From positions 1 through 36,774 of the forward strand of contig JAHHHV010000029.1 of the NCBI GenBank assembly GCA_019359155.1: a stretch of 36,774 nt of DNA, read 5' to 3'. Source of the DNA: Pegethrix bostrychoides GSE-TBD4-15B. GTDB lineage: Bacteria > Cyanobacteriota > Cyanobacteriia > Elainellales > Elainellaceae. The notes beneath the pieces were generated by a model. It searched no databases. It saw nothing but the letters and a program-made list of their open reading frames with translations, and was not told the DNA's origin. This document shows positions 4,707 to 19,568 of the stretch, piece after piece. The position numbers and the translations under genes were made by a program. Every line of letters begins with the position of its first letter. The stretch's first letter is position 1.

Positions 4707-4774
4707 CTATGGTCTATTGGCACACAGATGGACTTAGTATACGACAATGCAGCCGTAGAAAATCTCTCTCGGCA

Positions 4775-5521
4775 TTACATTGTAGAAATCGTCAACGAAG
4801 TAAAACGTTTGGCATTGCGGGGTTTTAGCGATTTTGCTATAGATAAGATATGGATGTTTCCCGCTTGCATGGCTTCGAGTGCCATTTGAGCTGATGCCAG
4901 CTCCTGCTCGTCAGTTGTCTCTGGCTGAGCTACAGGGGCAGGGATAGGGGCGTTGCGGCGGCAATCGATAGGCATGTGCATGCGCCCACCAAACCCAGTA
5001 GAGGCCGATATTAGCAGTCCGGCTGGCTCCAGTCCCATGTGCAGGCGACCAATAGCATCAACCGGCTGGCTCATGCGACGGTCGATCTCTGTGGGGCTGG
5101 CAGCGAGTACAACAGGCCGCTGGCCGGTGACGGTGGCTGCTTCATCGGCGATTTCCTGGCTCAGTCCGATCAGCGCTTTTGCTGCATCGAATAGCTTGGC
5201 TTCGAGCTTCTCAAAGGCTGCGAGTGCCTTGGCCTGCTCTGCCTTGAGTTTTGCGATCGCCGTCTGCCGTTTGGCGAGTTCGGCTTCAAGAGCTGCCAAT
5301 TCTTTGCGCTGGCTGGCAAGCTGCTGCTGGATCTGCGCGACTAGAACCTGATGCTCGGAGGCCGTTGCTGCCTGGGCGAGAGTCGAGCGGACGGTGTTCA
5401 ATGCCGGGTATGCCGTCTCATCGATTTTGTACGGCGGTGGATTCTTCTGAAGTTCTAGCGCCTGCTCGACTTCGGAAATCTGGGACTTTAGCAGGCTGAT
5501 CTGGCTTGGGAGGGTACTCAT
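4775..5521 (-). CDS. Coiled-coil protein of unknown function
   Basis: The product (248 residues from the ATG at 5521) begins MSTLPSQISLLKSQISEVEQ. It has heptad-rich, alanine, lysine, glutamate and glutamine-rich helices across about residues 5-130 (for example LEAELAKRQTAIAKLKAEQ), and then a less regular part with PIPAPVAQPET. A long coiled coil suggests a scaffold or a partner-binding rod; no enzymatic motif is visible. The exact HIP1 octamer GCGATCGC lies inside it at 5253-5260. Upstream on the same strand is the repeat-rich gap 5560-6110, which may regulate it. Confidence 0.55.
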   Translation of the reverse strand: MSTLPSQISLLKSQISEVEQALELQKNPPPYKIDETAYPALNTVRSTLAQAATASEHQVLVAQIQQQLASQRKELAALEAELAKRQTAIAKLKAEQAKALAAFEKLEAKLFDAAKALIGLSQEIADEAATVTGQRPVVLAASPTEIDRRMSQPVDAIGRLHMGLEPAGLLISASTGFGGRMHMPIDCRRNAPIPAPVAQPETTDEQELASAQMALEAMQAGNIHILSIAKSLKPRNAKRFTSLTISTM

Positions 5522-5661
5522 GGCTTTTAGCAAAAACGGTTGCACCGTCAAGATGCCCCATGAGAAAACTGCCCGGAAGAAACGAGCGGCTGAGGTTTAC
5601 CGTGTTTGCTGAAGTCTCTCGCAGGATGCCCCGGCATTGAAGAGTGCAGCAGGGGCTGAAG

Positions 5662-5758
5662 TTGTCCGCTAGATGTCCATTTCTTGTCCGTTTTTGTCCG
5701 GTCGGGTAGCCGCCAGAATGATGTCGCGGGTTGTCGTTTTTTTGTCGCAATCTGTCGC
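5662..5758. repeat. Two sets of four helically phased heptamers (TTGTCCG and TTGTCGC types)
   Basis: Heptamers start at 5662, 5673, 5684 and 5694 (TTGTCCG, ATGTCCA, TTGTCCG, TTGTCCG). Then come 5721, 5731, 5742 and 5752 (ATGTCGC, TTGTCGT, TTGTCGC, CTGTCGC). Spacing within each set is 10-11 bp, so all sites in a set face the same side of the helix. This is the layout of iteron arrays bound cooperatively by replication initiators, or by ribbon-helix-helix partition proteins of the ParR type. The region has no convincing gene. The same TGTCG core recurs in the two hairpins that follow. Confidence 0.65.
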
Positions 5759-5827
5759 AAGCAGCAGTGAAGCTCCGACCGATGCAGTTGGCGCAGGCTT
5801 TACCACGTTCGCATAAACCTCTTGAGC

Positions 5828-5854
5828 CACACTGTCGCAAAACCCGACAGTGTG
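5828..5854. other. Perfect 10-bp hairpin
   Basis: CACACTGTCG (5828-5837) and CGACAGTGTG (5845-5854) are perfect reverse complements around the 7-nt loop CAAAACC. The stem contains the TGTCG core of the upstream heptamers. No T-tract follows on either strand, so a simple terminator is unlikely. It may be a protein-binding palindrome or a cruciform in an origin region. Confidence 0.6.
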
Positions 5855-5893
5855 ACTTTGGCTAAAGTGCCGTACCGTGAGTTTAGGCTAGCC

Positions 5894-5957
5894 CTCAAAA
5901 TTGATGCTGCCTTGACACTTGCGCCTGACCACCCTTTTCTCAAAATTGATGCTGCCT
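5894..5957. repeat. Perfect 19-bp direct repeat
   Basis: CTCAAAATTGATGCTGCCT occurs at 5894-5912 and again, identical, at 5939-5957; the copies start 45 bp apart. The repeats lie between two hairpins whose stems share the TGTCG core. They could be binding sites or the scar of a short duplication. Confidence 0.6.
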
Positions 5958-5959
5958 GA

Positions 5960-5998
5960 AGTTGTCGGAAAAACCCGACAACTCCGATTTGGAATCGG
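5960..5998. other. Two adjacent hairpins
   Basis: AGTTGTCGG (5960-5968) pairs perfectly with CCGACAACT (5975-5983) around AAAAAC. Directly next to it, CCGATT (5984-5989) pairs with AATCGG (5993-5998) around TGG. Neither is followed by a T-tract. The first stem repeats the TGTCG core seen upstream. Confidence 0.55.
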
Positions 5999-6043
5999 GA
6001 CTGTGCTGGGGCTATCGGGATTCCCACAAAATGCAGCCGCTGT

Positions 6044-6071
6044 GCCGTCTATGGGAATCTGTATAGACGGC
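6044..6071. other. Perfect 9-bp hairpin
   Basis: GCCGTCTAT (6044-6052) and ATAGACGGC (6063-6071) form a perfect 9-bp stem with a 10-nt loop. It is the last of a series of four hairpins in the gene-poor stretch 5560-6110. From here to the GTG at 6351 I see no gene or strong repeat. Confidence 0.5.
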
Positions 6072-6350
6072 TGAAGAATGCGCTTCATTTTTCATCAACT
6101 TTGATGGAAAACATTCAGGGCAAGGCTTACGACCATATTGTCCCTGCCCCAAATATGATCGAACTCTGGACGGAGAGATGCTTTTTACGCCGTCGGGTAA
6201 TATGGGCGGTCACCGCGACAGGTCAAAGGCAATCCTCGCTTTCTGTCCAGAGTATAAGTCCAGGCTGTAAATCGGCTCGCTATTTGCAGTACTATCACCC
6301 TCTGCCATCCATCTTAGAATGAGACTCATCATCTTTATCTCAAGAAGCAA

Positions 6351-6668
6351 GTGCTTTATCTGATTGGGTATCGAGAGGCTGGAATCTATCACATCAAAAT
6401 TGGTATTGCGGCTAATCCACTACGGCGATTGAAGCAGCTCCAGACTGGGAACGGGCATCGCCTGAGCGTTCTGAAGGCGATTGACTGCGTTGCGCCGCGA
6501 CGGGTCGAGCTGGGTTTGCATCGGCAGTTCAGTCATTACCGGAAGTCTGGAGAGTGGTTTGAGCTGACGGCTCCAGTGCTGGCTCACCTTGAGCAGGTGA
6601 TGGACAGGCTAGCTGTTGATCAATTGCAGAATGAGCAGCAGCCTAAATCTTTTTACCTCGTCCGGTGA
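6351..6668 (+). CDS. GIY-YIG / Mug113-like small protein
   Basis: The 105-residue product (GTG start at 6351) reads LYLIGYREAGIYHIKIGIA, then NPLRRLKQLQTGNG, then VAPRRVELGLHRQF, then SGEWFEL. This order (a degenerate YLI...IKIGIA strand pair, an R-x-x-x-LQTG turn, E-x-x-LH-x-F, GEWFEL) is that of the T5orf172/Mug113 branch of the GIY-YIG superfamily. That family includes endonuclease-like domains, and many stand-alone copies have no known target. The conserved R and E positions are present. The ribosome binding site is weak. It is the first plus-strand gene before the tail-like cassette and could be an accessory homing-type or modification protein. Confidence 0.75.
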   Translation: MLYLIGYREAGIYHIKIGIAANPLRRLKQLQTGNGHRLSVLKAIDCVAPRRVELGLHRQFSHYRKSGEWFELTAPVLAHLEQVMDRLAVDQLQNEQQPKSFYLVR

Positions 6669-6856
6669 AAAGATGCGCCTTACTGACTGAGGTTTTGCCG
6701 ACTCTTTCGATCGCGCTTGAAACGCAGTGGTGAGTCGGCTTGTTCCCGCTGCAAAAATGGTCGATACCAACTGGCAAGCCTGCACAATGGCATGGTCAGC
6801 GAGATTCTGAATCCCTGCTAATTCCCGCTGCGCTGCCCCTAGACCACCTGCTGCCA

Positions 6857-6905
6857 CTCTCATCTCAAGACAGTAAGACTCACAATAAGTTAGGCTGTAA
6901 TCATA
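6857..6905 (+). repeat. 49-bp repeat, copy B
   Basis: It matches 1168-1216 at 45 of 49 positions in the same orientation. Here it lies 133 bp before the giant gene. The sequence after it (6944-7036) reads as LLPDSDPISTTKIGSGIRHIS and then DDLEALEGRR before a stop at 7034-7036. This faintly recalls the TSLDPTGQGSTTTLGKL start of the small gene at 1233. It is probably a worn copy of that gene's front end, and it may still carry a promoter and leader for the cassette. Confidence 0.55.
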
Positions 6906-6943
6906 TCCATTCTGCTAAGACTTTTAGCACTCGCGATGCCTTG

Positions 6944-7036
6944 TTGCCCGACTCTGATCCCATTTCGACAACGAAGATCGGTAGCGGAATACGACACATA
7001 TCTGACGACTTAGAAGCACTCGAAGGTAGACGGTGA
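6944..7036 (+). pseudogene. Possible remnant of an STTTLG-family gene, upstream of the cassette
   Basis: The frame ending at the TGA at 7034-7036 carries LLPDSDPISTTKIGSGIRHIS and stops 1 nt before the ATG at 7038. It follows repeat copy B just as the gene at 1233 follows copy A, and the STT-x-x-x-G pattern is in the corresponding place. There is no ATG near its start; a TTG at 6944 is possible. It may be a short coupled leader or a gene remnant. Similarity is weak, so this is tentative. Confidence 0.25.
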
Positions 7037-7037
7037 G

Positions 7038-10000
7038 ATGGGCAATGACAATCAGGTAGAGATTCAGTTTCGGCTAAATATCGAAAACTTCAGACAGGAT
7101 TTGTCTGAAGCTGAGAATTTAACGAAACAGAGTGTCACTAAGATTGCAGAAACTGCTGAGTCCGTTTCTTCTCCTCAGAATCAGGGGTCTGTTGCGGAGA
7201 TTCTAGGGCCAGGGCAAAGCCCTTATGTGGAACGTCCAGCTTTAAACATCCCAGCACCTGAGCCGCAATCGGAGAACCCTGCAAAAATTATTGAACCGGG
7301 TGCAGCAGCAGCAACTACGCGGCCAGCGCCGCCATTCCCTGGCACTGCGCCCGATAGTAGTCCGATTGGAAGCGTCCCCGCAGCACAGAACCCTGCACAC
7401 AAAATCATTCCGCCACCGCCAGAGCAAGAGACGGAGAAGCAAAGCCCTTCTCTTGCTTCAATCCGGGCGCAAGTCGAGCAGGTTAAGCAGTATGGACAAA
7501 ATGCGCCAGATGTGGCCGTGGCGCAAGTCCAGAAGCTGCAATCTGCGGCAGTCAAAGAAGCCGTCAAGAATCCTGAAGAGGCAAAAGCATATCAGGAGTT
7601 AATTGATGAACTGAAGAATCTTGCTGGAGTTTACAGGCAAGAAGCCAAGCAGTCCAAGGGCGGCGGCAGTGACGAGTTCCATGCGCTAAGAGAAGAGGTA
7701 AAAACAACCCGGCAAGTCAAATCTGCACCTGAGCGAGACAGTAGTTCAACAGAAAAGCTGGTGGGGCGTGTTGGTGGAAAAGAAGATCGCGCAGAGAAAC
7801 CTCGCGCGCAGGAGCAAGGCGCTGACGAGGGCGGGTTCAATAAGCTGATGAAATTCCTCAACGTGGCAGCAATTGCTGGCGTTGCAGGGAAGTCAGCAAG
7901 TGACGTTAGCCAAGGCAATTATTTGGGTGCTGCTGGCGGGCTGGCAGGCGGAGCTGCGGGTGCACTCTTAGCGCCGTTCACGGGGGGCATGTCCATCGGC
8001 ATTGGCGCTGGCATTGGTAACATGATCGGCGGTGCTGCTGACGGCTATATCAAACAAGCAGATCAAGCGCGGCAATATCAGGTCAAAGCGTCTGATATTG
8101 CGACTCGATTCGGGGGGCTGAGCGATGAGAACCTGAAGCCATTAGAGATCCAGCAGGCGGCTGCATGGTCGTCTAAGGGGTCAACGGCTGAAGAGTCGTT
8201 GCAGATGGTCGATCAGCTGCGCGACAAGCATGTAATCGGCAAGGTTGGGGAAGAAGAACAGCAGCTAGTCAAGGCACTGCAAGAGCTTTCACGCGCCACT
8301 GGCCAGAATACTGATGCGATGGTCAATCAGTATGCCTCCTATAGCGCGGCGGGCGGTGAGGGTGATGGCGCTGAGTATATGGCGCAGATGGTTGGTGGTG
8401 CTGTCAAGGCAGGGATGGAAAACAACCTGCAACAGTATGCCGAGCAAATGAATTCAGCTCGCAGTCAGGTTGTCCAGTCTGTTGGAACTGCCGATAAAGA
8501 CGATAAAGCGCTGAAGATGATTCAGTCGGTTTCGGCGATGCTAACTGGCGGCAAAAATGACACGTCTGAGTTTCTGCGAGAGAACGCAGGGATGTCTCAG
8601 GCGGCAATGTCCAACTTCCTGTCTACTGGAGGGGCAAAATCATATAGCTACGACTCTGTAGCGATGCAGATCTCAGGTATCGAGCGTAGTCAGACGGATG
8701 AAGTGTTCATTACGCCAGAGCGGAAACTGAAGAACGCTGCAATGCGGATGGATAAGACGCTGGATGATACCGTGTTCTCCCAGTCTGGCCTGAATATCTT
8801 GGGAATGAATGAGGGTCAGCTCAAAGAGCGTATGGCTCAAGATCCGAATTACCTTGAGAATGTCATGTCGTCTGAGAATCCAGACACACAGCAGGCAGCG
8901 GCGTTACAGGATCTAATCAAGACGAATTTCAAGGGCAACTATGGTCGCGATATGACCGTAGAGGATCGGCAGGTTTTTACGCAACTTGCTGGCGCTAAAG
9001 CTGCAAACAATGGCGAACTCTCAATTGACGCTATAGGTGCTGACGGCAAAACTGTTCAGCAGATGCTTGAGACACAAGGGATGTCTGAGGCGGAAAAGAC
9101 GAAAGAGTTAGAGGCGGAACGGTCAAAACTCACCATCCAAGCGCTTGACCATCTGACGACAGCGCTGAACACGATGGACGAGACGACCAATCAACTGCTA
9201 GGCGATGTCAATACATTCCTGGAGCAGAACCCGCAAATCATTGAGGGGTTGAATTCCATTTTGGGGCATCTACCAGACTTGATTGATTGGCTTGGCAATC
9301 TGGTCACAGACAAAATTCCGGGGTTGATCGGCTCTCTGACCGGCATGACCAAAACCGTGACAGACTTCAGCGGAGTATTCATTAAAGGTGTTGCTGATTT
9401 CTCGAAAGGGATCATTGATGGGGTCATGCAATTCGGCGGAGTTATAGGCAAATTTGGCGCAGACCTTGGATCAACGCTAGTTAAAGCGATCATGGGCTTT
9501 GGCGAGTTTTTGTCTAAGGGGTTGGATGGAATTGCCACTATTTTCCAAAATACGCCTGGGCTGAAAAGTGTTGGCGACACGATGAAGGCTGGCGGTAACG
9601 CGATCGGCGGTGTCATGGATGGACTGGGACAACTCGGCCAGAATGCTGCAAATATGGCGGGTGGCATTGCCAATAATATTATGGGCGGCAGCGCTCAAGC
9701 AGCAGCTGCGCCATCTGGGGGAAGTGGTGCAAAAGACGACTGGGCTAGTGAAGGGAAACCTCCCGCTAGCGCTCCATCTGTAGTAAGTAGCAATGGAGTC
9801 CCCGCCAATGCTACCAAGATAAGCAATGAGGAGCTTTACCAGCTTGCAGCAATCTCAAATCTGGAAGCCACGACAAAAATGGGGCGGGTTGACGTTGCTC
9901 AATCTATTTTCAATCGTGTCAATTCTGGCAACTACGGCGATAGCGTCACTGACGTAATTTTCGCAGAAGGTCAATACGAACCAATGTTCGGGCATGACCG

Positions 10001-13000
10001 CTCTGAAATCACAGACAGAGCAAGTGCGGCAAAATTCCTAGCGCAAAATCGCGGGATGTCCGAGGAAGAAGCGCTGACGCGATTGGATGAAACAGTCGGC
10101 ATGTTTGGCGAATCTTCAATCATGAAGAATGCTGCTGATCACGTCGGCGGGCGGACTGAATTCAAAGGTACAACGATGTACCAGCATAGAGTGGCCGCTG
10201 AAGATCCACTCAGGTCAGACGGTGAGAACTTCTTTCATATCGGGGGCGGGCAAACTCAATCCGATTTGGAAAAATGGCATAGCCAAGCGCCTACAGCGAT
10301 CGTTGGCGAAGATGTTGACCTGTCCAAGATTCAAGCAAAAGCGGGACAGGCTAGTGCCGCTGCGGACGCGCAATATCATGACACTCCACCTGCGGGGGTT
10401 TCGGCCACTCCAAACTTTAGGACTTTCAAATTTGAACCGGGTGACGTTGTTCATGCCTACCAGGCCAATAGCATCCCCTTTGGCTCAATAGGCGCAGCAT
10501 ACCCAGGCAAGGGCGTAGAGAAAAGTCCGGCACGTCACGAGCAGCAAAAGCAGGCAGTCAATAGCACCGAAAGTAGCCTTGACCATATCTTGTCAGTTCT
10601 CCAATCAGTATCCGGCAATAAATCTGAGAAGCCAGCATCTCTAGAAGATTTTGCGATGAAGCTCGGCTCTCCCATGTTTGGGAATGCTTCTGCCGTGACT
10701 GAACAATCTGCTGCTGTAACTGGTGGGGCGACTACTCCCGTTAGTTCAATCGCACCGCCTTACGAAACAGGGCGCGTGATGGGTGAGCCGCATGGGGAAA
10801 AGCCGACACAATCTCAGCAGTCGGGCGCTCCAGCCGTATTCACGGCACTGCTAGAAGAGGTTAAAAAGATCAGTGCATGGCTGCTGGATGGCAGGAAATC
10901 GGCCACTGAAGCTGTGCAAATCAAAGCGGCAGCGCCTGAAGTTCAGAAAACTCAGATCGAGGCAGTTCTGCCCAAGCCGGAAGAGAAGAAGGGAGAAAAA
11001 GGCAAAGATGGCGCTGTTACGACTGGCGGCGTTCTTTCTGGTGGCGGGAAGCCCACGGCATCTCAACAAGCTGCGGCTGGTGCAGTTACGGGCAGCGCAG
11101 ATCCGGGGTTTGAGTCGGGGATCTTTACCGCGCCGCAATCAAACAATGGCGGTTCTGCTGACTACCATATCGATCAGAAGTTCGATCGCGGCCTGGGAAT
11201 GCAGAAGATCGTCGGGATGTTTGACCAGATGGCTCAGCAGTACGACAAACAGGGTCGAAAGATTGAGTTTTCAAACAATAGCGTTGCCGGACAGGTCTAC
11301 GACTCCAAGGCTTCATTTGAGAAGAAAAAAGCGCTTCTGGAATCTGCATTTGAAGCGCACGGGGAGCACAGCGCATCAAGAGATGATGCCAACAATGTCC
11401 ATTCGATTGATTACTATGTTCCACAAAAAGACAAAGATCGGTTTGACAAGTCTGCCGAAAACGTCAACATGCTGCTGCCAACGATTCAAGGGGCCAAGCT
11501 TGAATATGCGTCAGGCGGCAATTATGGCAACTATGTGATCATGAAGGATGCTCAGGGTAAATACCTGATGCAGATGGGTCATGGAAATGACAGTAAGGCT
11601 TTACCTGGCAATAGAACGATAACTGGAGCGCCTGCCACTGCTGCGAAGCCTGCCGCTGCGCCTGCCAAAGATGACTGGGCAAACGAGCATCAAGCCGCAC
11701 CTGCCAACATCACAGGCGGGGCTGCACCTGCGCCTGGTGTGGGTGATGACAAACTGTTTGGCGGTGGATCTGCTAGCCTTGCTGCCAAAATCATCGGCAT
11801 GTCCGAAGGAAACCGCGATGAGTCGGGCGGCTTCCGAGAGTCTTATTACGGGCATTCAGATCCGGGCAATGGCGCGGCAAATACAGGCTCGTTCAGCGCA
11901 CAGCAGGGCATGGCTCCAGAAGAAGCCGACAAGCACTGGAACGCCAAGCTGAAAGAGCAAAAGGCAGTATTCCAGCAGCGAGCAAAACAAGCAGGCGTAG
12001 ATCCGAACGATTCGCGCCTGTTGATGAATTACCTGGATCTTTATGTCCAGTCTCCGCTGGCTGCTTCAGATAAAGGCGGTTTTCTGGATCAGCTTTCGAC
12101 CATTAAGGAGAAGGGCGTTAGCGATGAGTCGATCCTGGATGCGCGGGTCGCATCTTACTACAACCCTGACACTGGCAGGCTTGACGCGCCGGGGCTAGGC
12201 AATGATGAAGGCCGGGTTCGCAAAGACCAGGCACGGCGACAGGCTGAACTGAATGCAGGTATCAAAGTTCACTTGGGCGGTAATGTGGCGAATTCCGCCC
12301 CTGCTGCAACGCCGGATGTCGTTGCCACACAGCCCACGGCAGGAGGTTCACCCCAGGCGAGTGAATCTCCTGCATCTGAAACTGCGCCAGTGAGTAGCTC
12401 TACCGGTGGGAGTGATTCTGCGCTAAGCAGTAGCCGTGAGACGCTGGTCGGAATCCTCCACGAGGTGCGCCGCATTGCAGACTTCATCATTCTGGGTAAG
12501 ACGCTTGGTAGTGAGCGTCAGATGGGCGAGGGCATTGTGGATCATAAGCGTAATGTCTCCAGAAGAACAGACAGGGCATTCTCTGACAGCGTTTTTGATG
12601 GTGCGGGTAAAGTCGGCGGGCTAAGCGCAACCGCTGGATTGTCCAACACGGTTAGCGTCACAGACGCAAGCCAAAGCAATCTAGATAAAGTGATTGGCAC
12701 GTATGAGGCGGCGCAGGGCAGCGATGCAGGCAAGTTTGCTCAGTCGTTGGGCATCCAAAGTCAATCCCCAGAACCAGCCATGTCTGGCGCAACCCCTGAA
12801 GGCGCTCCGGCTCCCGACACAAACAAGATTGGCAAATTCTATGAGTCCGTTCAAGGCGGAATTGGAGGATTCCTAAGTAATCTTGGGTTTGGCAGTAAAC
12901 CTGAAGCCAAAGTCATCCCGACTCAGCCGGATCAGTATGAGCTGAACTCTATCGAGAAGGCTCTAGGGGGAGGGTTTGTCGGCAAAGCGGGCGGCAAGCT

Positions 13001-14498
13001 GCTAGAGCCAAGCAAGAAGGCAGGATCTGCAATTGATTCAGCAGGGCTGTATGACGCAAGCGGACAAGCTCTTGGTGCATTCGTCAAAGAATTAGGATTA
13101 GACGGCAACGCTCACAAGCTAGGTGCTGCTGGGATGATGACGGCTGGCGCTGGTGATTTTACAACACCAGAAGACCTGGACTTGCCAGAACGCGATGTCC
13201 CACAGGATGAAGACTTTTTCACCACCCTGAAGCGACGTGGACGCGGGCGCAAAACGAAGAATAAAGCGACGTTGACTAAACTGGGCGCTGACTTTGGGGG
13301 CAAACCCACGCTGAAGACAGACCCATCTGAATTTGGCGCAATGGCCGAACTTGGCGACTTTAGCGGCGTGGCAAAAGTGGATCTAGGTCTTGATCCAAAG
13401 ATTGACGTTGACAGCGTTGGGCAGTTCTATGATGGCGTGCAAGGTGATGACTTAAGTAAGTTCGTGGGGGCAGGTTCCCCAAAACCTGATCGTGATTCTG
13501 GCCTTGATAAAGTTGGCGGGTTTTATGACGCGCTAGATGGCGATGCCGCCACTTTCGCACAAAGCGTATATCCTCTAAAAGATGGGAGTGTTGGGCAAAC
13601 ACAAATGGGCGGGCTTAAAGCCACGCCTGCTGACTTTGACGTTGCGAAACTCGGCGATTTTACCGGGGCAGCAACATCACCCGACTTACTTGCAGCCCAG
13701 CCGGAGACTGACGCGCTGAAAGCTGCGGGATTGGACGAGAGCAGTGAAACGCTAGACGGGTTTTTGAAAACAGTGCAGCCAAAGGCCGAAAGCAAGGCCG
13801 AGTTGGCTAAAGATGGGTTGGTGCCCACTCAGCCTAATTCGCAAGATCAGGGCGCAGCGATGCGTTCAGATCCCAACCCAACGGTTGGAGACAATTTACT
13901 CGGAACGCAGGTCGCGGCAGTCGAACAAACGGAAGATCAGAAACAATCCGGACTGCTCCAAAAAATACTGGACGTGCTAACCAGCATGGCAACAAAAATG
14001 CTCGGCAGTACGCCAACGATGACGGCGCAACCTGCGGACTATGCGCTTAACGATGGGATGCCGTTTAAGGATGATGGCGCATTTTACAAAGCGGTTAGCG
14101 GCAGCGTCGATGATTTTATCAAAGCTGTCACCGAGAAGCCTGCACCAGAGTTCGGCTTTGCCAAACTGCCCATACAGCCTGAAGGTTCACCAGCGTATCG
14201 TGACCATGAGAATGTCAAAGGCAAAGGCCGCAGCATCGTAGACCGTGTGGCTGACGGCGACATGAAAGTGGAGGGACTTGACCTAAAGGGGATCTCCCCC
14301 GGCGGCGCAAATCGTGGGTCAATGCCGCAAATGAACGTCGTGGTTCATGTCACAGTGGCAGGTGAAGGCAGCAAGGAACAGGCTCGTGATGGCGCGAAAG
14401 AGGGCGTGCTGGCCGCTCATGACGAATTCTTGGCTCGATGGGAAAAAGGTGTTACAGATCCGCGCAATCACCCACGGATGAGAACTGGGATTCATTAA
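7038..14498 (+). CDS. Giant tape-measure-like protein with three wall-hydrolase-like domains
   Basis: The product has 2486 residues. A Pro/Ala-rich region (about 45-140) is followed by helices. A glycine-rich hydrophobic block (about 275-340, GLAGGAAGALLAPFTGG) and a second block (about 735-840) resemble the membrane-active parts of phage tape measure proteins. A SleB/CwlJ-like domain is at about 929-1071 (LAAISNLEATTKMG, IFNRVNSGNYGDSVTDVIF). A degenerate M23-like part is at about 1375-1520 (GGNYGNYVIMKDAQGKYLMQ). A lysozyme-like domain is at about 1575-1745 (MSEGNRDESGGFRESYYGHS, DPGNGAANTGSF). The last 600 residues hold degenerate repeats of the type DKVGxFYDAxxGD. The assignment is inferred from architecture and from the hub-like gene 2 nt downstream. 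No host-range motif or transmembrane signal peptide is seen at the start. Confidence 0.65.
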   Translation: MGNDNQVEIQFRLNIENFRQDLSEAENLTKQSVTKIAETAESVSSPQNQGSVAEILGPGQSPYVERPALNIPAPEPQSENPAKIIEPGAAAATTRPAPPFPGTAPDSSPIGSVPAAQNPAHKIIPPPPEQETEKQSPSLASIRAQVEQVKQYGQNAPDVAVAQVQKLQSAAVKEAVKNPEEAKAYQELIDELKNLAGVYRQEAKQSKGGGSDEFHALREEVKTTRQVKSAPERDSSSTEKLVGRVGGKEDRAEKPRAQEQGADEGGFNKLMKFLNVAAIAGVAGKSASDVSQGNYLGAAGGLAGGAAGALLAPFTGGMSIGIGAGIGNMIGGAADGYIKQADQARQYQVKASDIATRFGGLSDENLKPLEIQQAAAWSSKGSTAEESLQMVDQLRDKHVIGKVGEEEQQLVKALQELSRATGQNTDAMVNQYASYSAAGGEGDGAEYMAQMVGGAVKAGMENNLQQYAEQMNSARSQVVQSVGTADKDDKALKMIQSVSAMLTGGKNDTSEFLRENAGMSQAAMSNFLSTGGAKSYSYDSVAMQISGIERSQTDEVFITPERKLKNAAMRMDKTLDDTVFSQSGLNILGMNEGQLKERMAQDPNYLENVMSSENPDTQQAAALQDLIKTNFKGNYGRDMTVEDRQVFTQLAGAKAANNGELSIDAIGADGKTVQQMLETQGMSEAEKTKELEAERSKLTIQALDHLTTALNTMDETTNQLLGDVNTFLEQNPQIIEGLNSILGHLPDLIDWLGNLVTDKIPGLIGSLTGMTKTVTDFSGVFIKGVADFSKGIIDGVMQFGGVIGKFGADLGSTLVKAIMGFGEFLSKGLDGIATIFQNTPGLKSVGDTMKAGGNAIGGVMDGLGQLGQNAANMAGGIANNIMGGSAQAAAAPSGGSGAKDDWASEGKPPASAPSVVSSNGVPANATKISNEELYQLAAISNLEATTKMGRVDVAQSIFNRVNSGNYGDSVTDVIFAEGQYEPMFGHDRSEITDRASAAKFLAQNRGMSEEEALTRLDETVGMFGESSIMKNAADHVGGRTEFKGTTMYQHRVAAEDPLRSDGENFFHIGGGQTQSDLEKWHSQAPTAIVGEDVDLSKIQAKAGQASAAADAQYHDTPPAGVSATPNFRTFKFEPGDVVHAYQANSIPFGSIGAAYPGKGVEKSPARHEQQKQAVNSTESSLDHILSVLQSVSGNKSEKPASLEDFAMKLGSPMFGNASAVTEQSAAVTGGATTPVSSIAPPYETGRVMGEPHGEKPTQSQQSGAPAVFTALLEEVKKISAWLLDGRKSATEAVQIKAAAPEVQKTQIEAVLPKPEEKKGEKGKDGAVTTGGVLSGGGKPTASQQAAAGAVTGSADPGFESGIFTAPQSNNGGSADYHIDQKFDRGLGMQKIVGMFDQMAQQYDKQGRKIEFSNNSVAGQVYDSKASFEKKKALLESAFEAHGEHSASRDDANNVHSIDYYVPQKDKDRFDKSAENVNMLLPTIQGAKLEYASGGNYGNYVIMKDAQGKYLMQMGHGNDSKALPGNRTITGAPATAAKPAAAPAKDDWANEHQAAPANITGGAAPAPGVGDDKLFGGGSASLAAKIIGMSEGNRDESGGFRESYYGHSDPGNGAANTGSFSAQQGMAPEEADKHWNAKLKEQKAVFQQRAKQAGVDPNDSRLLMNYLDLYVQSPLAASDKGGFLDQLSTIKEKGVSDESILDARVASYYNPDTGRLDAPGLGNDEGRVRKDQARRQAELNAGIKVHLGGNVANSAPAATPDVVATQPTAGGSPQASESPASETAPVSSSTGGSDSALSSSRETLVGILHEVRRIADFIILGKTLGSERQMGEGIVDHKRNVSRRTDRAFSDSVFDGAGKVGGLSATAGLSNTVSVTDASQSNLDKVIGTYEAAQGSDAGKFAQSLGIQSQSPEPAMSGATPEGAPAPDTNKIGKFYESVQGGIGGFLSNLGFGSKPEAKVIPTQPDQYELNSIEKALGGGFVGKAGGKLLEPSKKAGSAIDSAGLYDASGQALGAFVKELGLDGNAHKLGAAGMMTAGAGDFTTPEDLDLPERDVPQDEDFFTTLKRRGRGRKTKNKATLTKLGADFGGKPTLKTDPSEFGAMAELGDFSGVAKVDLGLDPKIDVDSVGQFYDGVQGDDLSKFVGAGSPKPDRDSGLDKVGGFYDALDGDAATFAQSVYPLKDGSVGQTQMGGLKATPADFDVAKLGDFTGAATSPDLLAAQPETDALKAAGLDESSETLDGFLKTVQPKAESKAELAKDGLVPTQPNSQDQGAAMRSDPNPTVGDNLLGTQVAAVEQTEDQKQSGLLQKILDVLTSMATKMLGSTPTMTAQPADYALNDGMPFKDDGAFYKAVSGSVDDFIKAVTEKPAPEFGFAKLPIQPEGSPAYRDHENVKGKGRSIVDRVADGDMKVEGLDLKGISPGGANRGSMPQMNVVVHVTVAGEGSKEQARDGAKEGVLAAHDEFLARWEKGVTDPRNHPRMRTGIH

Positions 14499-14500
14499 AG

Positions 14501-16939
14501 ATGGTTTTAACGGTAGGAACATACGCACCACCGATGATCGTCTCGGATATCCGACCGGGCGACATGGAACATCCTGCGGGTAAAGGGTTGATCCAATTTC
14601 AGCTTAGAATTCTAACCCGGCTTGGCGAGGTGGTTCTTGACTTTGGGGAGTTTCAAGATCTGATTTCGTATCGCGACTCTTTGTCGGCTGAGGCAGCGTC
14701 GGGCACATTCACTTTCAGGATGCGGGCAAGCCTCTGCAACCAAAACCTGCTCAAAAAAGTACATCCTGGACTGGTAATGGAGGCTTACTGCGCTCGTAAC
14801 GCTGATGCGTTGCAGGGCGTGATTCGAGATCCATCCAAGATTGAACGGGTTGAGACTGCGCCGGAAGGTGAGGGCGCGGAGGGACTGCAAGACCCAGATG
14901 TTGGCATTATCGCCCCAGTGGAGGATGCCTACCTAGACAAAGCTCCGCACCTGCTGATCCGTGGTGTGATTACTGACTATGGCCGCAGTTCCGAAGGCGG
15001 GGAGACAAGCCTGTATGTGACGGGCGAAAGCTACGGAAAGATCTATAAAGACTCGTATGTGCTGACAGATCTGAATACACCAGAGACGATAGGTGTTTCG
15101 CAGAGATCTCTTGAGATCCGGCAGACAGCGACAGTAACGATGGGCGCTGCTATTCTCTACTATCGAATCCTGCGTGACTGGGTAGAGAACTTCTGGGGGG
15201 AGCCGACAGGATGGGAGGCTAGAACAAGGCCGCTGCCATTCCCGCCCAACTATTTAGCCAGGATAAACAACGAAGGCTCTGCATGGTCGAACCTTCAATA
15301 CCTTGCGGTAGAAGGCTTCTTCCACATGTTCGTGGATCACACAGGCGCAATCGTCTGGGAGAAACTACCTTATTCGTCGCGTTCGCAGGCATTAGTGCCG
15401 GGTCGGAATTGGGAAGACCTGCCGATGATCGAGATGCCGTCCTGGAAAATCCTTAGCTGGTCAGATCGCTTGTCAGAGCAAGGTATTACCAATTTCTTGC
15501 GTGTCACATCAAGCCAACAGGGGAATAGCGGCGGGCAGGAAAGAGCGGCAATGGCATCCTGCATTTATAACCTTGGCTCAATCAAGCAGTATGGCGGGCC
15601 AACCAAACGTGAGTTGATGGTGCCAATCGGCATCCTCGAAAAAGATAATTGGTATACCTCGCCAGATCGCCGCAATCAGCAGGCAACCAATAACACGCTG
15701 ACCGACTACATAGCGCTTGAGTCGATCCGTTGGTTTGACCGCCCGGTGCAGCGAGTCGGCATTACAGCGCGGGGTGAGTCAGCTTGGCGTGTTCATACGC
15801 GCATCTCGCTCAAAGAAGATTGGCATTGCCCAGACGCAGAACCAGCTGAATACTATGTTGTCTCCAGGACACATCAGATCGACATACAGCGAGGCTCATG
15901 GATATCAACGCTTGAATTGCTGAGAGACAGGAGAGAGCGGTATTTAGGGCTTGGTGCAGGTTCAACAGCAGTCGTGAATAATCCAGCAGAGCCAGTTCCC
16001 CCTGTGATTCCGCCGCGCCAAACGGCAAGGCCAGTGCTGACGACGGATCAACTGCTCGACTTAGGCATAGACCTGACAGATGAGCTGAAGCGGCTGCTGG
16101 GCAACGAGCCGTACAGGCCGCTAGATGGCCTGCGGCGCATTACGTCTGGGATTGACATTGGGCGGATTCTAGGGATTAGCGAGTCTAAAGGCGGATTGCA
16201 GAATATTCCAGACCTTGACTTCCCTGACATCAACCTGGACGAGGAATATAACAACGGCGCAGATATCGAGGTTGAGGCGGATGACTACTGGTGGACAGAT
16301 CGCATGTCAGGAATGCGAATAATCAATATTGGCGGAGATCCGATTGCTTGGGGGCAGGCTCATGTTGCGGGAGCCGTGGGTGAGCCTGGGCCAGTTGCAA
16401 CGGTTGAACCAAATCCAACACCAGAGCCTGCACCAGTAGATCCGAATGCGCCGCCGCCTGCTGTTGTAACGCCAGATCCAACAGGTGTGGACTTTGAGCC
16501 AGTAGACAAAATCTATCGCGACAATCTAGAAGATGAGTCCCCGCCCGGTTCGTATGATTTCACGCTGGAGCGCAAAGGGAATGTGATCACGCCAATCCCT
16601 GCACCAGTAAACGGCACGATTGGTAGGTCTGAAGTATTGCCGGGATACGGGAATGTTGTCGAGGTGATCGGCGATGACGGCAACACCTGGTTCTTCGCCC
16701 ATATGGACTCGCGCGGTGTTCAACCGGGAGCAAGGATCACCAAAGGGCAAACGTTGGGGAATCAGGGCTGGACGGGCAAGATCTTCCCGCAAAACGAGAA
16801 TGGTTCGCATATTCATCTTGAAATATCCAATGCTCAAAAAGGCGCGGGCAATGCCTTTAACCGTGTGACAGATCGCAGTTACACAAGACCATTGGTAGAA
16901 AGCTATTTGCAGGGCGTACAGAATGGGAGGATTAACTGA
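14501..16939 (+). CDS. Baseplate-hub-like protein with a C-terminal M23 peptidase-like domain
   Basis: Starting at the ATG at 14501, 2 nt after the previous stop, the product is 812 residues. The first 370 residues (FGEFQDLISYRDSLSAEAAS, FTFRMRASLCNQNLLKKVHP, LLIRGVITDYGRSSEGGETS, LYVTGESYGKIYKDSYVLTD) read like a phage baseplate hub of the gpD/gp27 type. A Pro-rich linker (about 640-670) leads to an M23-like domain (about 684-790) with PIPAPVNGTI, PGYGNVVEVIG, FFAHMDSRG, G-x-x-I-x-KGQ-x-LG and the zinc-binding HIHLE. The usual first histidine ligand is not obvious; YDFT may supply the aspartate. It would cap a tail tip and cut peptidoglycan. It is tightly coupled to the giant gene and overlaps the next start by 1 nt. 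Confidence 0.65.
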   Translation: MVLTVGTYAPPMIVSDIRPGDMEHPAGKGLIQFQLRILTRLGEVVLDFGEFQDLISYRDSLSAEAASGTFTFRMRASLCNQNLLKKVHPGLVMEAYCARNADALQGVIRDPSKIERVETAPEGEGAEGLQDPDVGIIAPVEDAYLDKAPHLLIRGVITDYGRSSEGGETSLYVTGESYGKIYKDSYVLTDLNTPETIGVSQRSLEIRQTATVTMGAAILYYRILRDWVENFWGEPTGWEARTRPLPFPPNYLARINNEGSAWSNLQYLAVEGFFHMFVDHTGAIVWEKLPYSSRSQALVPGRNWEDLPMIEMPSWKILSWSDRLSEQGITNFLRVTSSQQGNSGGQERAAMASCIYNLGSIKQYGGPTKRELMVPIGILEKDNWYTSPDRRNQQATNNTLTDYIALESIRWFDRPVQRVGITARGESAWRVHTRISLKEDWHCPDAEPAEYYVVSRTHQIDIQRGSWISTLELLRDRRERYLGLGAGSTAVVNNPAEPVPPVIPPRQTARPVLTTDQLLDLGIDLTDELKRLLGNEPYRPLDGLRRITSGIDIGRILGISESKGGLQNIPDLDFPDINLDEEYNNGADIEVEADDYWWTDRMSGMRIINIGGDPIAWGQAHVAGAVGEPGPVATVEPNPTPEPAPVDPNAPPPAVVTPDPTGVDFEPVDKIYRDNLEDESPPGSYDFTLERKGNVITPIPAPVNGTIGRSEVLPGYGNVVEVIGDDGNTWFFAHMDSRGVQPGARITKGQTLGNQGWTGKIFPQNENGSHIHLEISNAQKGAGNAFNRVTDRSYTRPLVESYLQGVQNGRIN

Positions 16940-17172
16940 TGGCTGAAATAGGGGCGGGTCATCGCAAAGTAAATCCAGGGCGCGAGTCCACTGGCACCGA
17001 TTTTTATAGTGAAGTTGCAGATCTACTACTGTCGGCTGTTGGTGAGCTAGCAGTTCAGTCCGAAGACCCACTCCAGGCAAAAAACACGGTCGTCAATAAT
17101 GACTTACATCTCTTCTTCCACTTCAACAACGACGCTGGGGCAGCTATCTCAAATCTGTCCTCAACTATCTGA
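16939..17172 (+). CDS. Small protein translationally coupled to the hub gene
   Basis: The ATG at 16939 shares one base with the hub stop codon (TGATG), a classical coupling arrangement. The 77-residue product begins MAEIGAGHRKVNPGREST, has a helix-prone middle (EVADLLLSAVGELAVQ) and then polar sequence. Its last 74 nt overlap the next gene (17099-17305) in another frame, so the true end may differ or the two may be coupled. By position after the hub it could be a small tail or chaperone component; no family recognised. Confidence 0.5.
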   Translation: MAEIGAGHRKVNPGRESTGTDFYSEVADLLLSAVGELAVQSEDPLQAKNTVVNNDLHLFFHFNNDAGAAISNLSSTI

Positions 17173-17305
17173 GGGTGATCGGCTCCGAGTGCTTGAGTTC
17201 GCCCTGGCGCTGTTGGAACAGAAGTCAGGCAAGCGGGTAAAACGGGCGGCTCGGTTCATCCAGCCTGCGCGTCCGGCGCTGGAAGATTGGCGAGTGGGGC
17301 AGTGA
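17099..17305 (+). CDS. Small protein of the STTTLG family, copy 2
   Basis: A 68-residue product aligned to the product of 1233-1436: STTTLG-x-L, CPQLSEGDRLRVLEFALALLEQ, a basic patch (KRVKRAARF) and a C-terminal EDWRVGQ. It begins in the same ATGACTT context and also lacks a Shine-Dalgarno sequence, so it may be translated by coupling to the overlapping upstream gene. Conservation of two copies 16 kb apart suggests a real gene. It may be a helical regulator or antitoxin-like; not established. Confidence 0.6.
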   Translation: MTYISSSTSTTTLGQLSQICPQLSEGDRLRVLEFALALLEQKSGKRVKRAARFIQPARPALEDWRVGQ

Positions 17306-17367
17306 TGTTCGGGGTAAAGCTGGTTTTTGAAAATGGTGCTTTTTAATGCCAGCTTGGCCTAAAACTC

Positions 17368-17388
17368 TAACTTATAGACGTTTTAACA
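17368..17388. repeat. 21-bp sequence shared with 22312-22332
   Basis: TAACTTATAGACG followed by any base and TTTAACA occurs here and at 22312-22332, identical at 20 of 21 positions. At 22312 it encodes, on the minus strand, the last residues (VKPSIS, stop) of the gene at 22311-22544. Here the minus strand would read VKTSIS and stop, but no gene precedes it. It may be a gene-end remnant or a DNA site. Confidence 0.5.
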
Positions 17389-17401
17389 TTCCCGATCTGC
17401 C

Positions 17402-17490
17402 TACTCATTCTGTACTCATTCTGTACTCATGGAAACGCCAGAAATCGATTTTATGACTCTTTAGCGCAAGAATGAGTACGGAATAGTACA
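17402..17490. repeat. 11-bp tandem repeats TACTCATTCTG with inverted partners
   Basis: TACTCATTCTG occurs at 17402-17412 and 17413-17423, and a third partial unit (TACTCAT) is at 17424-17430. About 40 bp further on, 17470-17490 contains two related units on the opposite strand (TACTATTCCG then TACTCATTC when read in reverse). Direct 11-bp periodicity with inverted partners is typical of iterons or cooperative operators. The stretch 17306-17938 has no convincing larger gene. Confidence 0.55.
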
Positions 17491-17578
17491 CTGCTGCCAA
17501 CGAGCTAGAGTAGCTGAAAACTGGTGCGATCACTAGGTCAAAGCTGTAAACAGCAAACTGTTGAGGGTAGTCAGGTGA

Positions 17579-17672
17579 TGGAAAAGAAGCGAAAAATACG
17601 GAAATTGAGCGCAGAATGGTGGCTTTAATTCCGATTTTGGCGCTATGTATGGTGATGATTTCGCAGTATTGA
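17579..17672 (+). other. Two overlapping tiny reading frames, basic then hydrophobic
   Basis: ATG at 17579 gives MEKKRKIRKLSAEWWL and then a stop. ATG at 17616, in another frame, gives MVALIPILALCMVMISQY and then a stop at 17670-17672. Joined by a frameshift in the overlap they would form a basic N-terminus followed by one membrane helix, the layout of small single-pass membrane peptides, including some type I toxins. CAGGTG just before 17579 is at best a weak ribosome binding site. This could be chance. Confidence 0.25.
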
Positions 17673-17722
17673 GTGTGTGTGGGAAGCCCCAGAAGCCTTC
17701 AGCTGTAGAGATCTCGGCTTGG

Positions 17723-17750
17723 GAGCGATGAACTGTTTTCCGCTCTTTTC
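17723..17750 (+). terminator. Weak terminator-like hairpin
   Basis: GAGCG (17723-17727) can pair with CGCTC (17741-17745), and TTTT follows. The stem is only 5 bp, so support is weak. It lies in the gene-poor stretch downstream of the plus-strand cassette. Confidence 0.25.
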
Positions 17751-17771
17751 CAGAAAAACTAGACGGGTAGG

Positions 17772-17802
17772 GAATGCTTCAGCCCCACTTTGAATGCTTC
17801 AG
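17772..17802. repeat. 11-bp direct repeat GAATGCTTCAG
   Basis: GAATGCTTCAG occurs at 17772-17782 and 17792-17802; starts are 20 bp apart, two helical turns. It lies in the same non-coding stretch as the TACTCATTCTG array, upstream of the 17835 repeat. Confidence 0.45.
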
Positions 17803-17834
17803 TTGTCAGCGGGAGCATGTCACCTTTGCGGTGA

Positions 17835-17849
17835 AGTATTTATACTCAT
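17835..17849. repeat. 15-bp sequence AGTATTTATACTCAT, copy 2
   Basis: Identical over 15 bp to 88-102. The TACTCAT core also recurs in the array at 17402-17430, so one DNA-binding protein may recognise all of these. No gene starts directly downstream on the plus strand; the minus-strand HNH-like gene ends at 17939. Confidence 0.5.
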
Positions 17850-17938
17850 GAGCAGAAACCCTCTACTTACAGGCATTCAGCTATATCGTTGCCAAGACAC
17901 TCAAGTTATGAACCTTCCAAAGTGACATGCACACGTTG

Positions 17939-18970
17939 TCAGCTGATGAATGGCCGGTTTTCAAAATCGCGTTGTAGTTTTTCAAATCGATTCATCAAAT
18001 TTTGTAGATGAGCAGCCATTTTGGGTTTCTCAAAACGCCAGCCTTCTACTGAGGTTAAATATTCAACAAAATGCTGGGGTTCGCATCCGCTACTCCCATG
18101 CCACTTATGGAAGCCTTGATGTATGTCTTCATGCATTGCTAGAAGATTATCGTGACGGGCTGCAAGATCAGGGCGAGTTGAACGATCGAACAGATGATGA
18201 ATATGCATGTCAAATGGGGCATGGGGTCTCTGCCGCTCCAGAGTTACCTGACATTTGCGGTTGGCAGCTGCTTTCACCTGATCCATGGCTCTTTGAACTC
18301 TCGCATCAAAAGAGTCTAAATATTTTCTCTGCTGATTAATAGCATCCTCATAGACTTCACATACTGCCTCAGTCCAAGCTTTTCGAGACTTTTGCGCTAA
18401 CTTCTCAGACATATTTTTGGCAATACGAACCATCCCGCTCTGGCTCCAGTATTCAACTCCATCGATTATGTCAAAGTCTTTCCCTATTTTTAGTTGATTA
18501 CGTCCGTCTAAGCTATCGTTTTCCTGCTCTCTCTTTCTAGCAGCATTCAACCCCTTGCCATTAGTATCTAGAATCCGAATTGTACGGCGTCGATCAACAA
18601 AGACCAGTTCACCTCTGACGACTACACCATCTTGGCATTCGCGAACAATTCTGCGTCTTACTAGCATTTGTTTGATGCGTTTGCGCCGATGCGTCAGCCT
18701 CTCTATAACAGATTCAAAAAGCTGACTAAACACGCTGGCTCTTGCAGTCTCTTGAAGGTATTTGGCAATTGCCATTGCTCCTTCTTCATAGAAGATACGA
18801 GTTCCCAGGCTCTGATTTAACCACTCAAAATGTTCACCTTCGATCAAATCCCATTCGTCATCATTGCGAGCATCAAAAGCTGTACAGACTGCATATAATC
18901 GCTTCAAATTAACATCCAGAATCTTTGCTGTCTCTTCAGCAGACAGCAGTTCGTGCTTAGTGTTGACCAT
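17939..18970 (-). CDS. HNH-like nuclease-fold protein with an N-terminal HTH
   Basis: The 343-residue product starts with a MerR/excisionase-like helix-turn-helix (residues 8-30, LLSAEETAKILDVNLKRLYA). A basic middle region follows (RRKRIKQMLVRRRIVRECQ). Near the C-terminus (about 235-300) is C-Q-V-T followed by FDMHIHHLFDRSTRPDLA, NLLAMHEDIHQGFHKWHG. The order C ... H-x-HH ... NL ... H-x-x-FH-x-W resembles HNH-type nuclease folds with a zinc-binding or catalytic His cluster. I infer a DNA-binding or DNA-cutting protein; the exact family is not recalled. It runs in the same direction as the J-domain gene 31 bp upstream. Confidence 0.6.
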   Translation of the reverse strand: MVNTKHELLSAEETAKILDVNLKRLYAVCTAFDARNDDEWDLIEGEHFEWLNQSLGTRIFYEEGAMAIAKYLQETARASVFSQLFESVIERLTHRRKRIKQMLVRRRIVRECQDGVVVRGELVFVDRRRTIRILDTNGKGLNAARKREQENDSLDGRNQLKIGKDFDIIDGVEYWSQSGMVRIAKNMSEKLAQKSRKAWTEAVCEVYEDAINQQRKYLDSFDARVQRAMDQVKAAANRKCQVTLERQRPHAPFDMHIHHLFDRSTRPDLAARHDNLLAMHEDIHQGFHKWHGSSGCEPQHFVEYLTSVEGWRFEKPKMAAHLQNLMNRFEKLQRDFENRPFIS

Positions 18971-19001
18971 AGCTGCTCAGCCTTCTAGTAGAGCGGTGTA
19001 C

Positions 19002-19568
19002 TTAACGAAACGCCAGAAGTGAATCTCGCATTTTTTGCAACTCCTCAAATACTTCGCGGTTCCCCCCATAATCTGGGTGATGCTGCTTTGCTAAGTGACG
19101 AAACGCTGTGTTGATATCGTCAGTGCTGGCTGTCTTTGGATTCAGGTTGAAGACGTGCCACGGGCGGAAATTCTTGAGAACGTCAATGCCATTGATGCAG
19201 GTCGGGCCTTCCTCATGACGCTCGGTTTCAGGAACTCTCACCCACTCTCGATATAGAATCAGCCAGCCTTCTTTTTTGCGAAGATCTAGTTCTTGCCCAG
19301 CAATTGCAAGCTTGAAAGCTTTGTGCTTCTTCAGTTCTTTGATATCACCGCACCCAAAAGCTTTGGCAACAGCAGCCTGTAGCTCAGATACTGTTGGTTC
19401 TTTTATTTTTGGAGTCTTGCTTGTTTGAGTTGACTTGGTGGAAGTCTTAGGCTTACGAGCTGATTTAGTTTGTGATTGTACAAATTCAGCAAACTCTTTT
19501 AAGACTTGAGCGTCATAGCCGAATTCGTGAACAATTTCGTGAATTCTAGATTCAATTGGGGTTGTCAT
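19002..19568 (-). CDS. J-domain (DnaJ-like) protein
   Basis: Using the ATG at 19568, the product has 188 residues. The C-terminal part (about 140-188) is a J domain: INTAFRHLAKQHHPDYGG with the HPD tripeptide, then EVFEELQKMRDSLL. The N-terminal part has a helix (EIVHEFGYDAQVLKEFAEFV), a Lys/Ser/Thr-rich linker (KSARKPKTSTKSTQTSKTP) and a middle domain. J proteins stimulate Hsp70 (DnaK). A non-canonical C-terminal J domain usually recruits Hsp70 to one specific task, possibly replication or assembly of the replicon's own complexes. An upstream in-frame TTG at 19592 is a less likely start. Confidence 0.8.
   Translation of the reverse strand: MTTPIESRIHEIVHEFGYDAQVLKEFAEFVQSQTKSARKPKTSTKSTQTSKTPKIKEPTVSELQAAVAKAFGCGDIKELKKHKAFKLAIAGQELDLRKKEGWLILYREWVRVPETERHEEGPTCINGIDVLKNFRPWHVFNLNPKTASTDDINTAFRHLAKQHHPDYGGNREVFEELQKMRDSLLAFR

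Follow-up and report, generated by a model that had tools for sequence, protein, structure and literature searches.

A phage-type tape measure and baseplate hub gene pair on a cyanobacterial plasmid contig: a possible partial tail kit of a satellite-like element

The stretch of DNA analysed here (hereafter, the window) is an entire contig of 36,774 nucleotides (JAHHHV010000029.1) from the cyanobacterium Pegethrix bostrychoides GSE-TBD4-15B (assembly GCA_019359155.1). It harbors two adjacent long genes whose sequence kinship supports their assignment to a tape measure protein (TMP, P0001) and a baseplate hub (P0002) of the contractile-tail kind. The contig is, judging from its genes, part of a cyanobacterial plasmid with an ordinary backbone, and searches of the source genome found no sheath, capsid, or baseplate J relative. 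We give about an even chance to the explanation that this is a satellite-like plasmid, which would contribute a partial tail kit, namely its TMP and hub, to the tail of a helper phage.

Kinship of the gene pair to contractile tails

An earlier note, made from the sequence alone, had described proteins of 2486 and 812 residues encoded 2 nt apart, the second with an M23 tail, as an orphan phage-tail-like pair in a plasmid-like setting. The frames, the spacing between the TMP stop and the hub start, and the M23 domain were all confirmed (Table 1). Hydrolase_2 in the TMP and M23 in the hub are the sole domains above the Pfam cut-offs, so the tail identity is argued from kinship to phage tail clusters. 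As references, a region of Leptolyngbya sp. FACHB-36 (L033, NZ_JACJPG010000189.1) and the IMG/VR loci L034–L040 and L043 were used. Single-query searches with P0001, P0002, and P0003 found no viral contigs, while alignments did: a hub alignment with two relatives found one more genome locus and seven viral contigs, and a wider alignment found an eighth.

Table 1. Features of the window
Feature	Position	Strand	Remarks
T5orf172/MUG113 nuclease-like gene, left of the pair	6351–6668	+	MUG113 4.9e-16 (59.5 bits, cut-off 22.3); T5orf172 7.8e-10 (39.6, cut-off 20)
57-nt repeat, left bound of the phage piece	6849–6905	+	89% identical to 1160–1216 of the replicon
TMP (P0001), 2486 aa	7038–14498	+	kinship to phage TMPs
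TMP conserved core	8046–9215	+	converted from ORF coordinates 345–734
Hydrolase_2 (SleB-type) cell-wall hydrolase segment in TMP	9876–10001	+	Pfam 3.6e-07, 31.2 bits, cut-off 27
TMP segment common to IMG/VR phage TMPs	11121–11621	+	38% over 170 aa, ~2e-29
TMP domain of host type	11748–12377	+	matched across the family of the host; putative wall enzyme
Baseplate hub (P0002), 812 aa	14501–16939	+	kinship to phage hubs; stop ends at 16939
Peptidase_M23 at hub C-terminus	16586–16837	+	Pfam, residues 696–779, E 2.4e-12
77-aa ORF with spike stub	16939–17172	+	residues 6–24 (19 residues) match the start of the spike gene that follows phage hubs, then diverge
HNH-like gene, right neighbor (weak)	17939–18970	-	phrog_119 E 0.0029; no Pfam/NCBIfam match
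Terminase small subunit (TerS)-like gene	21493–21972	-	phrog_2538 1.3e-10 and four more TerS families at ≤1.3e-05
Plasmid gene near rep	32275–33033	+	common to pSYN6312.01, 31% over 249 aa, 2e-25
Plasmid replication protein (Rep)	34440–36740	+	CyRepX-like via pSYN6312.01

In FACHB-36, the genes are arranged in the order of sheath, tube, chaperone, TMP, hub, spike, LysM, gp25-like, and baseplate J, interrupted by one additional gene after TMP and by two more after the hub, and the order is the same in L034 and L036, the IMG/VR loci read. The FACHB-36 sheath is named by phrog_279 and the tube matches only a "virion structural protein" family, while the chaperone, spike, LysM, gp25, and baseplate J genes are presumed from their position and from the usual make-up of such clusters. 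A large terminase, a capsid, and a tail are found on the same contig, with an integrase about 110 kb from the terminase, and the region is prophage-like. A 579-aa gene, which we take to be AIPR-like, lies on the opposite strand between TMP and hub of this contig (7757–9496, minus strand).

The TMP of the window is 41% identical to that of FACHB-36 over 392 aa (6.7e-88), with further matches of 33% over 96 aa (N-terminal), 63% over 30 aa (middle), and 42% over 50 aa (C-terminus), both ends being retained relative to the FACHB-36 protein. Identities to the IMG/VR TMPs are 33–35% over 394–446 aa, and in four of the six the segment listed in Table 1 is matched as well. The hub is 51% identical to the FACHB-36 hub over 691 aa and 60% over 121 aa, and 45–49% identical over 307–509 aa to those of seven IMG/VR loci. 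Thus, the first reading of the pair as tape measure and hub is borne out by kinship to contractile-tail clusters. The hub family is rare in the phylum rather than absent: a phylum-wide search (E ≤ 1e-15; two candidates scored per genome listed) was positive in one of 386 genomes, namely that of the window, and no INPHARED phage gave a hub-core match at E ≤ 10. A gene on an Oscillatoria acuminata plasmid (NC_019700.1, 17672–18811, minus strand) encodes an M23 and an endolysin-type domain; the M23 portion and the C-terminal region of the window hub share 39% identity.

Especially, the TMP is long, with 2486 aa against 809, 1281, and 1307 aa in the related phages read. It has one strongly hydrophobic stretch at residues ~296–327, it has extra domains, and its residues ~1530–2430 match nothing in the related phage TMPs. 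A search with the TMP matched 34 of 36 genomes of the host's family (its own included), and all non-self matches fall within residues 1517–1798. The domain of host type that lies there is probably a wall enzyme; it matches neither Pfam nor a solved structure. Nine loci with relatives of this domain were compared and two of them read; neither protein is TMP-like in length, and one has a signal-like start. Among solved structures, the hub profile found a weak match to the phage hub 9ndy_E (E 0.028), and also a nanobody (E 0.051), and profiles of two TMP segments found no match.

Edges of the captured piece and the absent tail and head genes

The residues of the spike stub that follows the hub align to the FACHB-36 spike with a score of 80, which none of 2000 shuffles reached (maximum 56; E 3.8e-06), and no such match was found to the shorter spike of L036. 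On the other side, 132 nt separate the end of the 57-nt repeat from the first codon of the TMP. When the region 5600–7037 was compared with the tail references (E ≤ 0.05), a single 24-residue stretch was matched at E ~0.02; the DNA directly before the TMP has no match among PLSDB plasmids, and a 98-aa open reading frame (ORF) there has none in PHROGs. Because the repeat ends so close upstream and only 19 residues of the spike remain, the phage-derived piece consists of two whole genes and little more, and the tail cluster is, as far as these alignments tell, cut on both sides of the pair. The suggestion of the earlier note that this may be a stripped tail machine is supported as to origin by this remnant of the next tail gene.

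Two genes resembling nucleases flank the pair, one of the T5orf172/MUG113 type on the left and a weakly HNH-like one on the right. Phage genes, including tail genes, bracketed by such nucleases have been described, and the nucleases were proposed to mobilise them, in the accessible part of a report (PMC10448857). This arrangement, together with the reduction of the spike to a stub and the failure to find relatives of the chaperone, tube, or sheath of the phages in the window, speaks for the main rival explanation, which we consider rather unlikely: a recent recombination left a functionless tail piece that has not yet decayed. Against such a passenger stand two complete genes with 3298 open codons. 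Under free drift, the chance of having no stop in TMP and hub falls to 0.05 at ~0.009 substitutions per site, as estimated with a transition weight of 2 and indels ignored. The open frames favor function or a very recent capture, without telling the two apart.

The rest of the tail and the head was searched for in the source genome, a draft of 5.72 Mb in 92 contigs that is 99.97% complete. The sheath profile phrog_279 has no match there, nor in two other carriers of an orphan hub, i.e., G032, a genome of the host's family, and the Synechococcus plasmid pSYN6312.01, while all four controls (FACHB-36 and three IMG/VR loci) were positive. A search with the capsid protein of these phages was likewise negative for the genome, three of six sequence sets being positive, the three controls only. 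Genome searches with the FACHB-36 sheath, the FACHB-36 baseplate J, and PF04984 found nothing; the baseplate J absence is one genome search with no control of its own, and those with the FACHB-36 sheath or PF04984 are likewise partly uncontrolled. PF04984 alone is not trusted for the absence of a sheath, because it misses the FACHB-36 sheath that phrog_279 finds. In G032, PF04984 gave one match on another contig, which phrog_279 did not report. For tube, chaperone, and spike, the comparison with the hub phages was limited to the window, and no relative was found there besides the stub. Therefore, the orphan state of the pair, as claimed at first, is supported by these searches genome-wide for sheath and capsid, with controls, and for baseplate J, without one. 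The statement of the earlier note that none of the usual neighbors (tube, sheath, or capsid genes) is recognisable is to be corrected for the spike stub and the TerS-like gene.

A phage-plasmid has a full set of virion genes on its replicon, and a contractile injection system or tailocin has a sheath and a tube. Here, no full virion gene set is found, as in satellites, and neither is a sheath, by three queries genome-wide, nor a tube, in the window. It is very unlikely that the replicon is a phage-plasmid, i.e., a temperate phage living as a plasmid, with further virion genes that were overlooked or are carried on a different contig. An open contig and a draft genome of many contigs would leave room for such genes; the lack of sheath and capsid in a nearly complete genome, with every control positive (4/4 for sheath, 3/3 for capsid), partly contradicts this reading, and the spike is truncated.

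The plasmid and other replicons with orphan hubs

The plasmid-like setting noticed at first is upheld by Rep. It matched 93 plasmid records, the best covering 91% of the query, and the genera listed among them are all cyanobacterial. It is 34% identical over 191 aa to the Rep of pSYN6312.01 (Synechococcus PCC 6312, NC_019681.1), a closed plasmid of 23,223 bp typed as non-mobilizable. The latter Rep in turn matched 117 plasmid records and no phage, including a 106-kb plasmid of Synechocystis PCC 6803 at positions 27999–30797, whose size suggests that it is pSYSX. The gene slr6031 (CyRepX1) has been placed on pSYSX, in a region that contains this match, in the accessible part of that work (PMC10899382). 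An own replication module, as a satellite would have, is thus present as a Rep related to those of cyanobacterial plasmids. The idea that the shared module marks a special family of satellite plasmids was dropped, Rep being common in cyanobacterial plasmids as the 117 records tell.

Scans against Pfam, PHROGs, or NCBIfam, which covered only part of the ORFs of an open contig, found no relaxase, type IV secretion, or conjugation gene in the window. In this light, the transfer aid proposed by the earlier note is plausible only by way of a helper phage. Its other proposal, a cell-wall-piercing device, found no support, with no tube or sheath relative beside the pair. A stand-alone device for wall piercing or related to conjugation would suit the wall hydrolase segments in both proteins; such domains need no separate device, because the FACHB-36 hub and one IMG/VR TMP carry them as well. 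With no phage tube or sheath relative in the window, no sheath in the genome, no conjugation gene among the scanned ORFs, and the non-mobilizable type of pSYN6312.01, this is the least probable of the alternatives and hardly credible.

Orphan hubs are found on other replicons. A search of 36 genomes of the host's family with the hub core was positive in two, its own and G032. The G032 hub is located close to one end of a contig of 268 kb (L028, contig 6), in an island covering 1–19740, and is followed by a RusA-like gene and then by a relative (2.5e-10) of the phage gene adjoining the large terminase. This relative, two genes after the hub, had been taken as TerS by its looks; PHROGs alone do not support this, and its relation to the gene adjoining the phage large terminase does. 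Further along are a short recombinase, a 664-aa ATPase-like gene, presumably FtsK-like, a DNA primase named by PHROGs, which we take to be of D5 type, and a tyrosine integrase directly adjoining the 3′-half of a tRNA. Rfam scores this tRNA half at 23.9 bits, short of the gathering score of 29, and ARAGORN finds none; judging from the anticodon loop, it is presumably tRNA-Phe. A search with P0001 did not find the TMP core in G032. The hub of pSYN6312.01 is 34% identical to residues 1–469 of the window hub and has no M23 domain, and no TMP relative was found on that plasmid.

In 456 columns of the hub core, the window and G032 are 70% identical, and each is 66% identical to FACHB-36. Five phage or prophage hubs, with four being 97–99% alike, share 228 invariant columns, of which 195 are kept in the window, 194 in G032, and 139 in pSYN6312.01. 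In the hub tree, the window and G032 are placed together (88.2/85), while pSYN6312.01 is grouped with IMG/VR hubs (99.2/99). Because of these two placements, at least two captures of the hub are likely, and that of pSYN6312.01 is probably a separate one, as far as the tree goes. While the hub cores of G032 and the window are 70% identical, their M23 regions share only 38% identity (78 columns), and that of G032 has lost the residues expected to bind zinc. A ratio of nonsynonymous to synonymous rates (dN/dS) between the orphan hubs is unobtainable because synonymous sites are saturated (pS 0.82). The retained columns of the window hub, and the intact hub frames of 812, 733, and 594 aa on three separate replicons, count against a functionless passenger.

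Furthermore, the window harbors a TerS-like gene. Its relatives are found on five small cyanobacterial plasmids and in no INPHARED phage, and a search of viral sequences gave two weak TerS-like loci. No terminase large subunit lies beside it in the window. In Calothrix NIES-22 plasmid8 and Fischerella NIES-4106 plasmid7, the relative is immediately followed by a gene for the terminase large subunit (phrog_2, 1.7e-24 and 9.3e-30, respectively).

These pairs of small and large terminase genes lie on closed cyanobacterial plasmids of 21–23 kb, AP018215.1 (2360–4178) and AP018305.1 (17061–18882), both with a Rep related to that of pSYN6312.01. Among the annotated proteins scanned (10 of 23 and 8 of 35, respectively), no clear capsid or tail protein was found, with one minor-head match (3.7e-04) in AP018305.1. 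It is possible that these plasmids are satellites.

A partial tail kit and its known counterparts

The preferred explanation can be put as follows. The plasmid would have taken a contiguous piece with TMP and hub from a contractile-tailed cyanophage. A phage of the FACHB-36 or IMG/VR kind, infecting or induced, would serve as a helper, contributing the tube, sheath, spike, wedge, fibres, and head. On the phage baseplate, the very long TMP and the hub, which brings its own M23 wall peptidase, would come from the plasmid in place of the phage proteins. The TerS-like protein would steer the helper terminase to plasmid DNA. In favor of this are the kinship of the pair, the capture of two whole genes with open frames, the retained hub columns and TMP ends, the lack of sheath, capsid, and baseplate J relatives in the genome searches, the TerS-like gene, the two further orphan hubs, and the precedent of chimeric tails in PLE satellites. 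By analogy with known satellites, we infer that TMP and hub may be produced and enter helper tails and that the plasmid may be packaged. Somewhat more tentative, and in our estimate a little short of an even chance, is the general form of the claim: satellites of contractile-tailed phages, as cyanobacterial plasmids or islands, would carry their own hub, here with a TMP about two to three times as long as those of related phages, and would set the tail length and a wall-cutting tip. A longer tail might follow from the longer TMP.

Several observations weigh against a satellite-like plasmid with a partial tail kit. The spike stub is an untidy cut. No gene for the capsid of the matching phages was found in this genome. 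No relative of the tail assembly chaperone of the hub phages was found in the window, whereas all PLEs, satellites discussed below, have one; an unrelated chaperone is possible. Pfam names the TerS-like gene as a transposase/resolvase helix-turn-helix only (best HTH_Tnp_1_2, 1.6e-07; Terminase_5 at only 0.038). The FACHB-36 genome and five hub-phage records gave no match to this gene. Its relatives on Geminocystis pGM04 and C. aponinum pAL20118a have no annotated large subunit next to them, so the family need not be bound to a terminase. For the phage gene adjoining the large terminase, the TerS name is itself weak (phrog_2538 at 3.8e-04 and 8.5e-04, with better matches to other families). The integrases of G032 and of the FACHB-36 contig share 46.5% identity, and hence the G032 island could be a shrunken prophage; the G032 primase has no match on the FACHB-36 contig. 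The ends of the window do not overlap (exact end repeats of 20–399 nt), and the Rep stop lies 34 nt short of the contig end, where Rep may be cut short. Relatives of Rep were not found in viral contigs by exact peptide patterns. AlphaFold2 models are poor, with a mean pLDDT of 30.2 for the hub (alignment of eight) and 44.3 for TMP residues 1560–1800 (alone).

A further alternative, quite unlikely in our view, is an anti-phage decoy, in which the plasmid hub and TMP would spoil the tails that an infecting phage builds, the plasmid itself not being packaged. A lone hub, as on pSYN6312.01, could act in this way without a TMP, and interference with tail assembly by satellites or prophages is established for Tai (PMC11364771) and Rta (PMC12987554), as far as the accessible parts of these papers tell. 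Rta has only 80 aa (PMC12987554), and a 2486-aa TMP with wall-enzyme segments would be costly for a decoy; the TerS-like gene points to packaging.

Returning to the tail kit of a satellite, the counterpart is PLE, a group of satellites of ICP1 including PLE11, PLE1, and PLE4. In Vibrio cholerae, PLE11 encodes TMP, chaperone, and hub, and the tails hold the TMP and hub of PLE11 and exclude those of the phage; all PLEs carry tmp and tac, the latter for the chaperone, and the hub is found in PLE11 and not in all. In this report of 2026 (PMC12987554), PLEs are described as the first phage satellites for which manipulation of tail assembly is known. The likeness is in gene content, with an own TMP and an own hub as in PLE11, and in the proposed mechanism, by which the other tail parts would come from the helper to give chimeric tails like those shown for PLE11. 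PLEs carry a chaperone and parasitise a lytic vibriophage, whereas here a cyanobacterial plasmid is concerned. Since no relative of the hub-phage chaperone was found, the plasmid would work like, rather than be, a PLE.

There are other partial counterparts. The FACHB-36 region and the IMG/VR loci have a homologous hub and, where read, a homologous TMP in the same order; unlike the window, they carry a sheath (4/4 searched) and a capsid (3/3 searched) and, where read, spike, gp25-like, and baseplate J genes, named partly by position, and their TMPs are shorter. The plasmid pSYN6312.01 shares a hub of the same family, a related Rep, and a related gene near rep, and differs in being closed at 23 kb, in its hub without M23, and in the TMP, which was not found. 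Plasmid DNA of Marinitoga piezophila enters phage particles, and plasmid-encoded tail parts are unmentioned in the accessible part of the account (PMC11921389). Putative tmp genes are reported in cf-PICIs, again in the accessible part of the source (PMC12987554); these satellites form capsids, whereas the search of the present genome for the capsid of the hub phages was negative. No report of such a system turned up in literature searches on cyanobacterial satellites, on tail parts or terminases of satellites, or on pSYN6312, subscription papers being largely outside the search.

If the proposal is true, tail reprogramming would have arisen outside Vibrio and on plasmids, and, should the plasmid work like a PLE, the strategy is wider and reaches plasmids and photosynthetic hosts. 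It would also offer a route by which plasmids typed as non-mobilizable, such as pSYN6312.01, move between cyanobacteria. The TMP and hub pair, cut out whole, makes it testable which tail parts suffice to reprogramme a tail.

Minor features of the window were noted besides these genes. Next after the TerS-like gene on the same strand, a 421-aa protein with DUF4352 and a bacterial SH3 domain is encoded (20000–21262, minus strand), which is likely a lipoprotein by its start. Rfam reports nothing in the window at gathering scores. A direct repeat of ~360 nt, 73% identical, is found at 745–1093 and 1578–1941.

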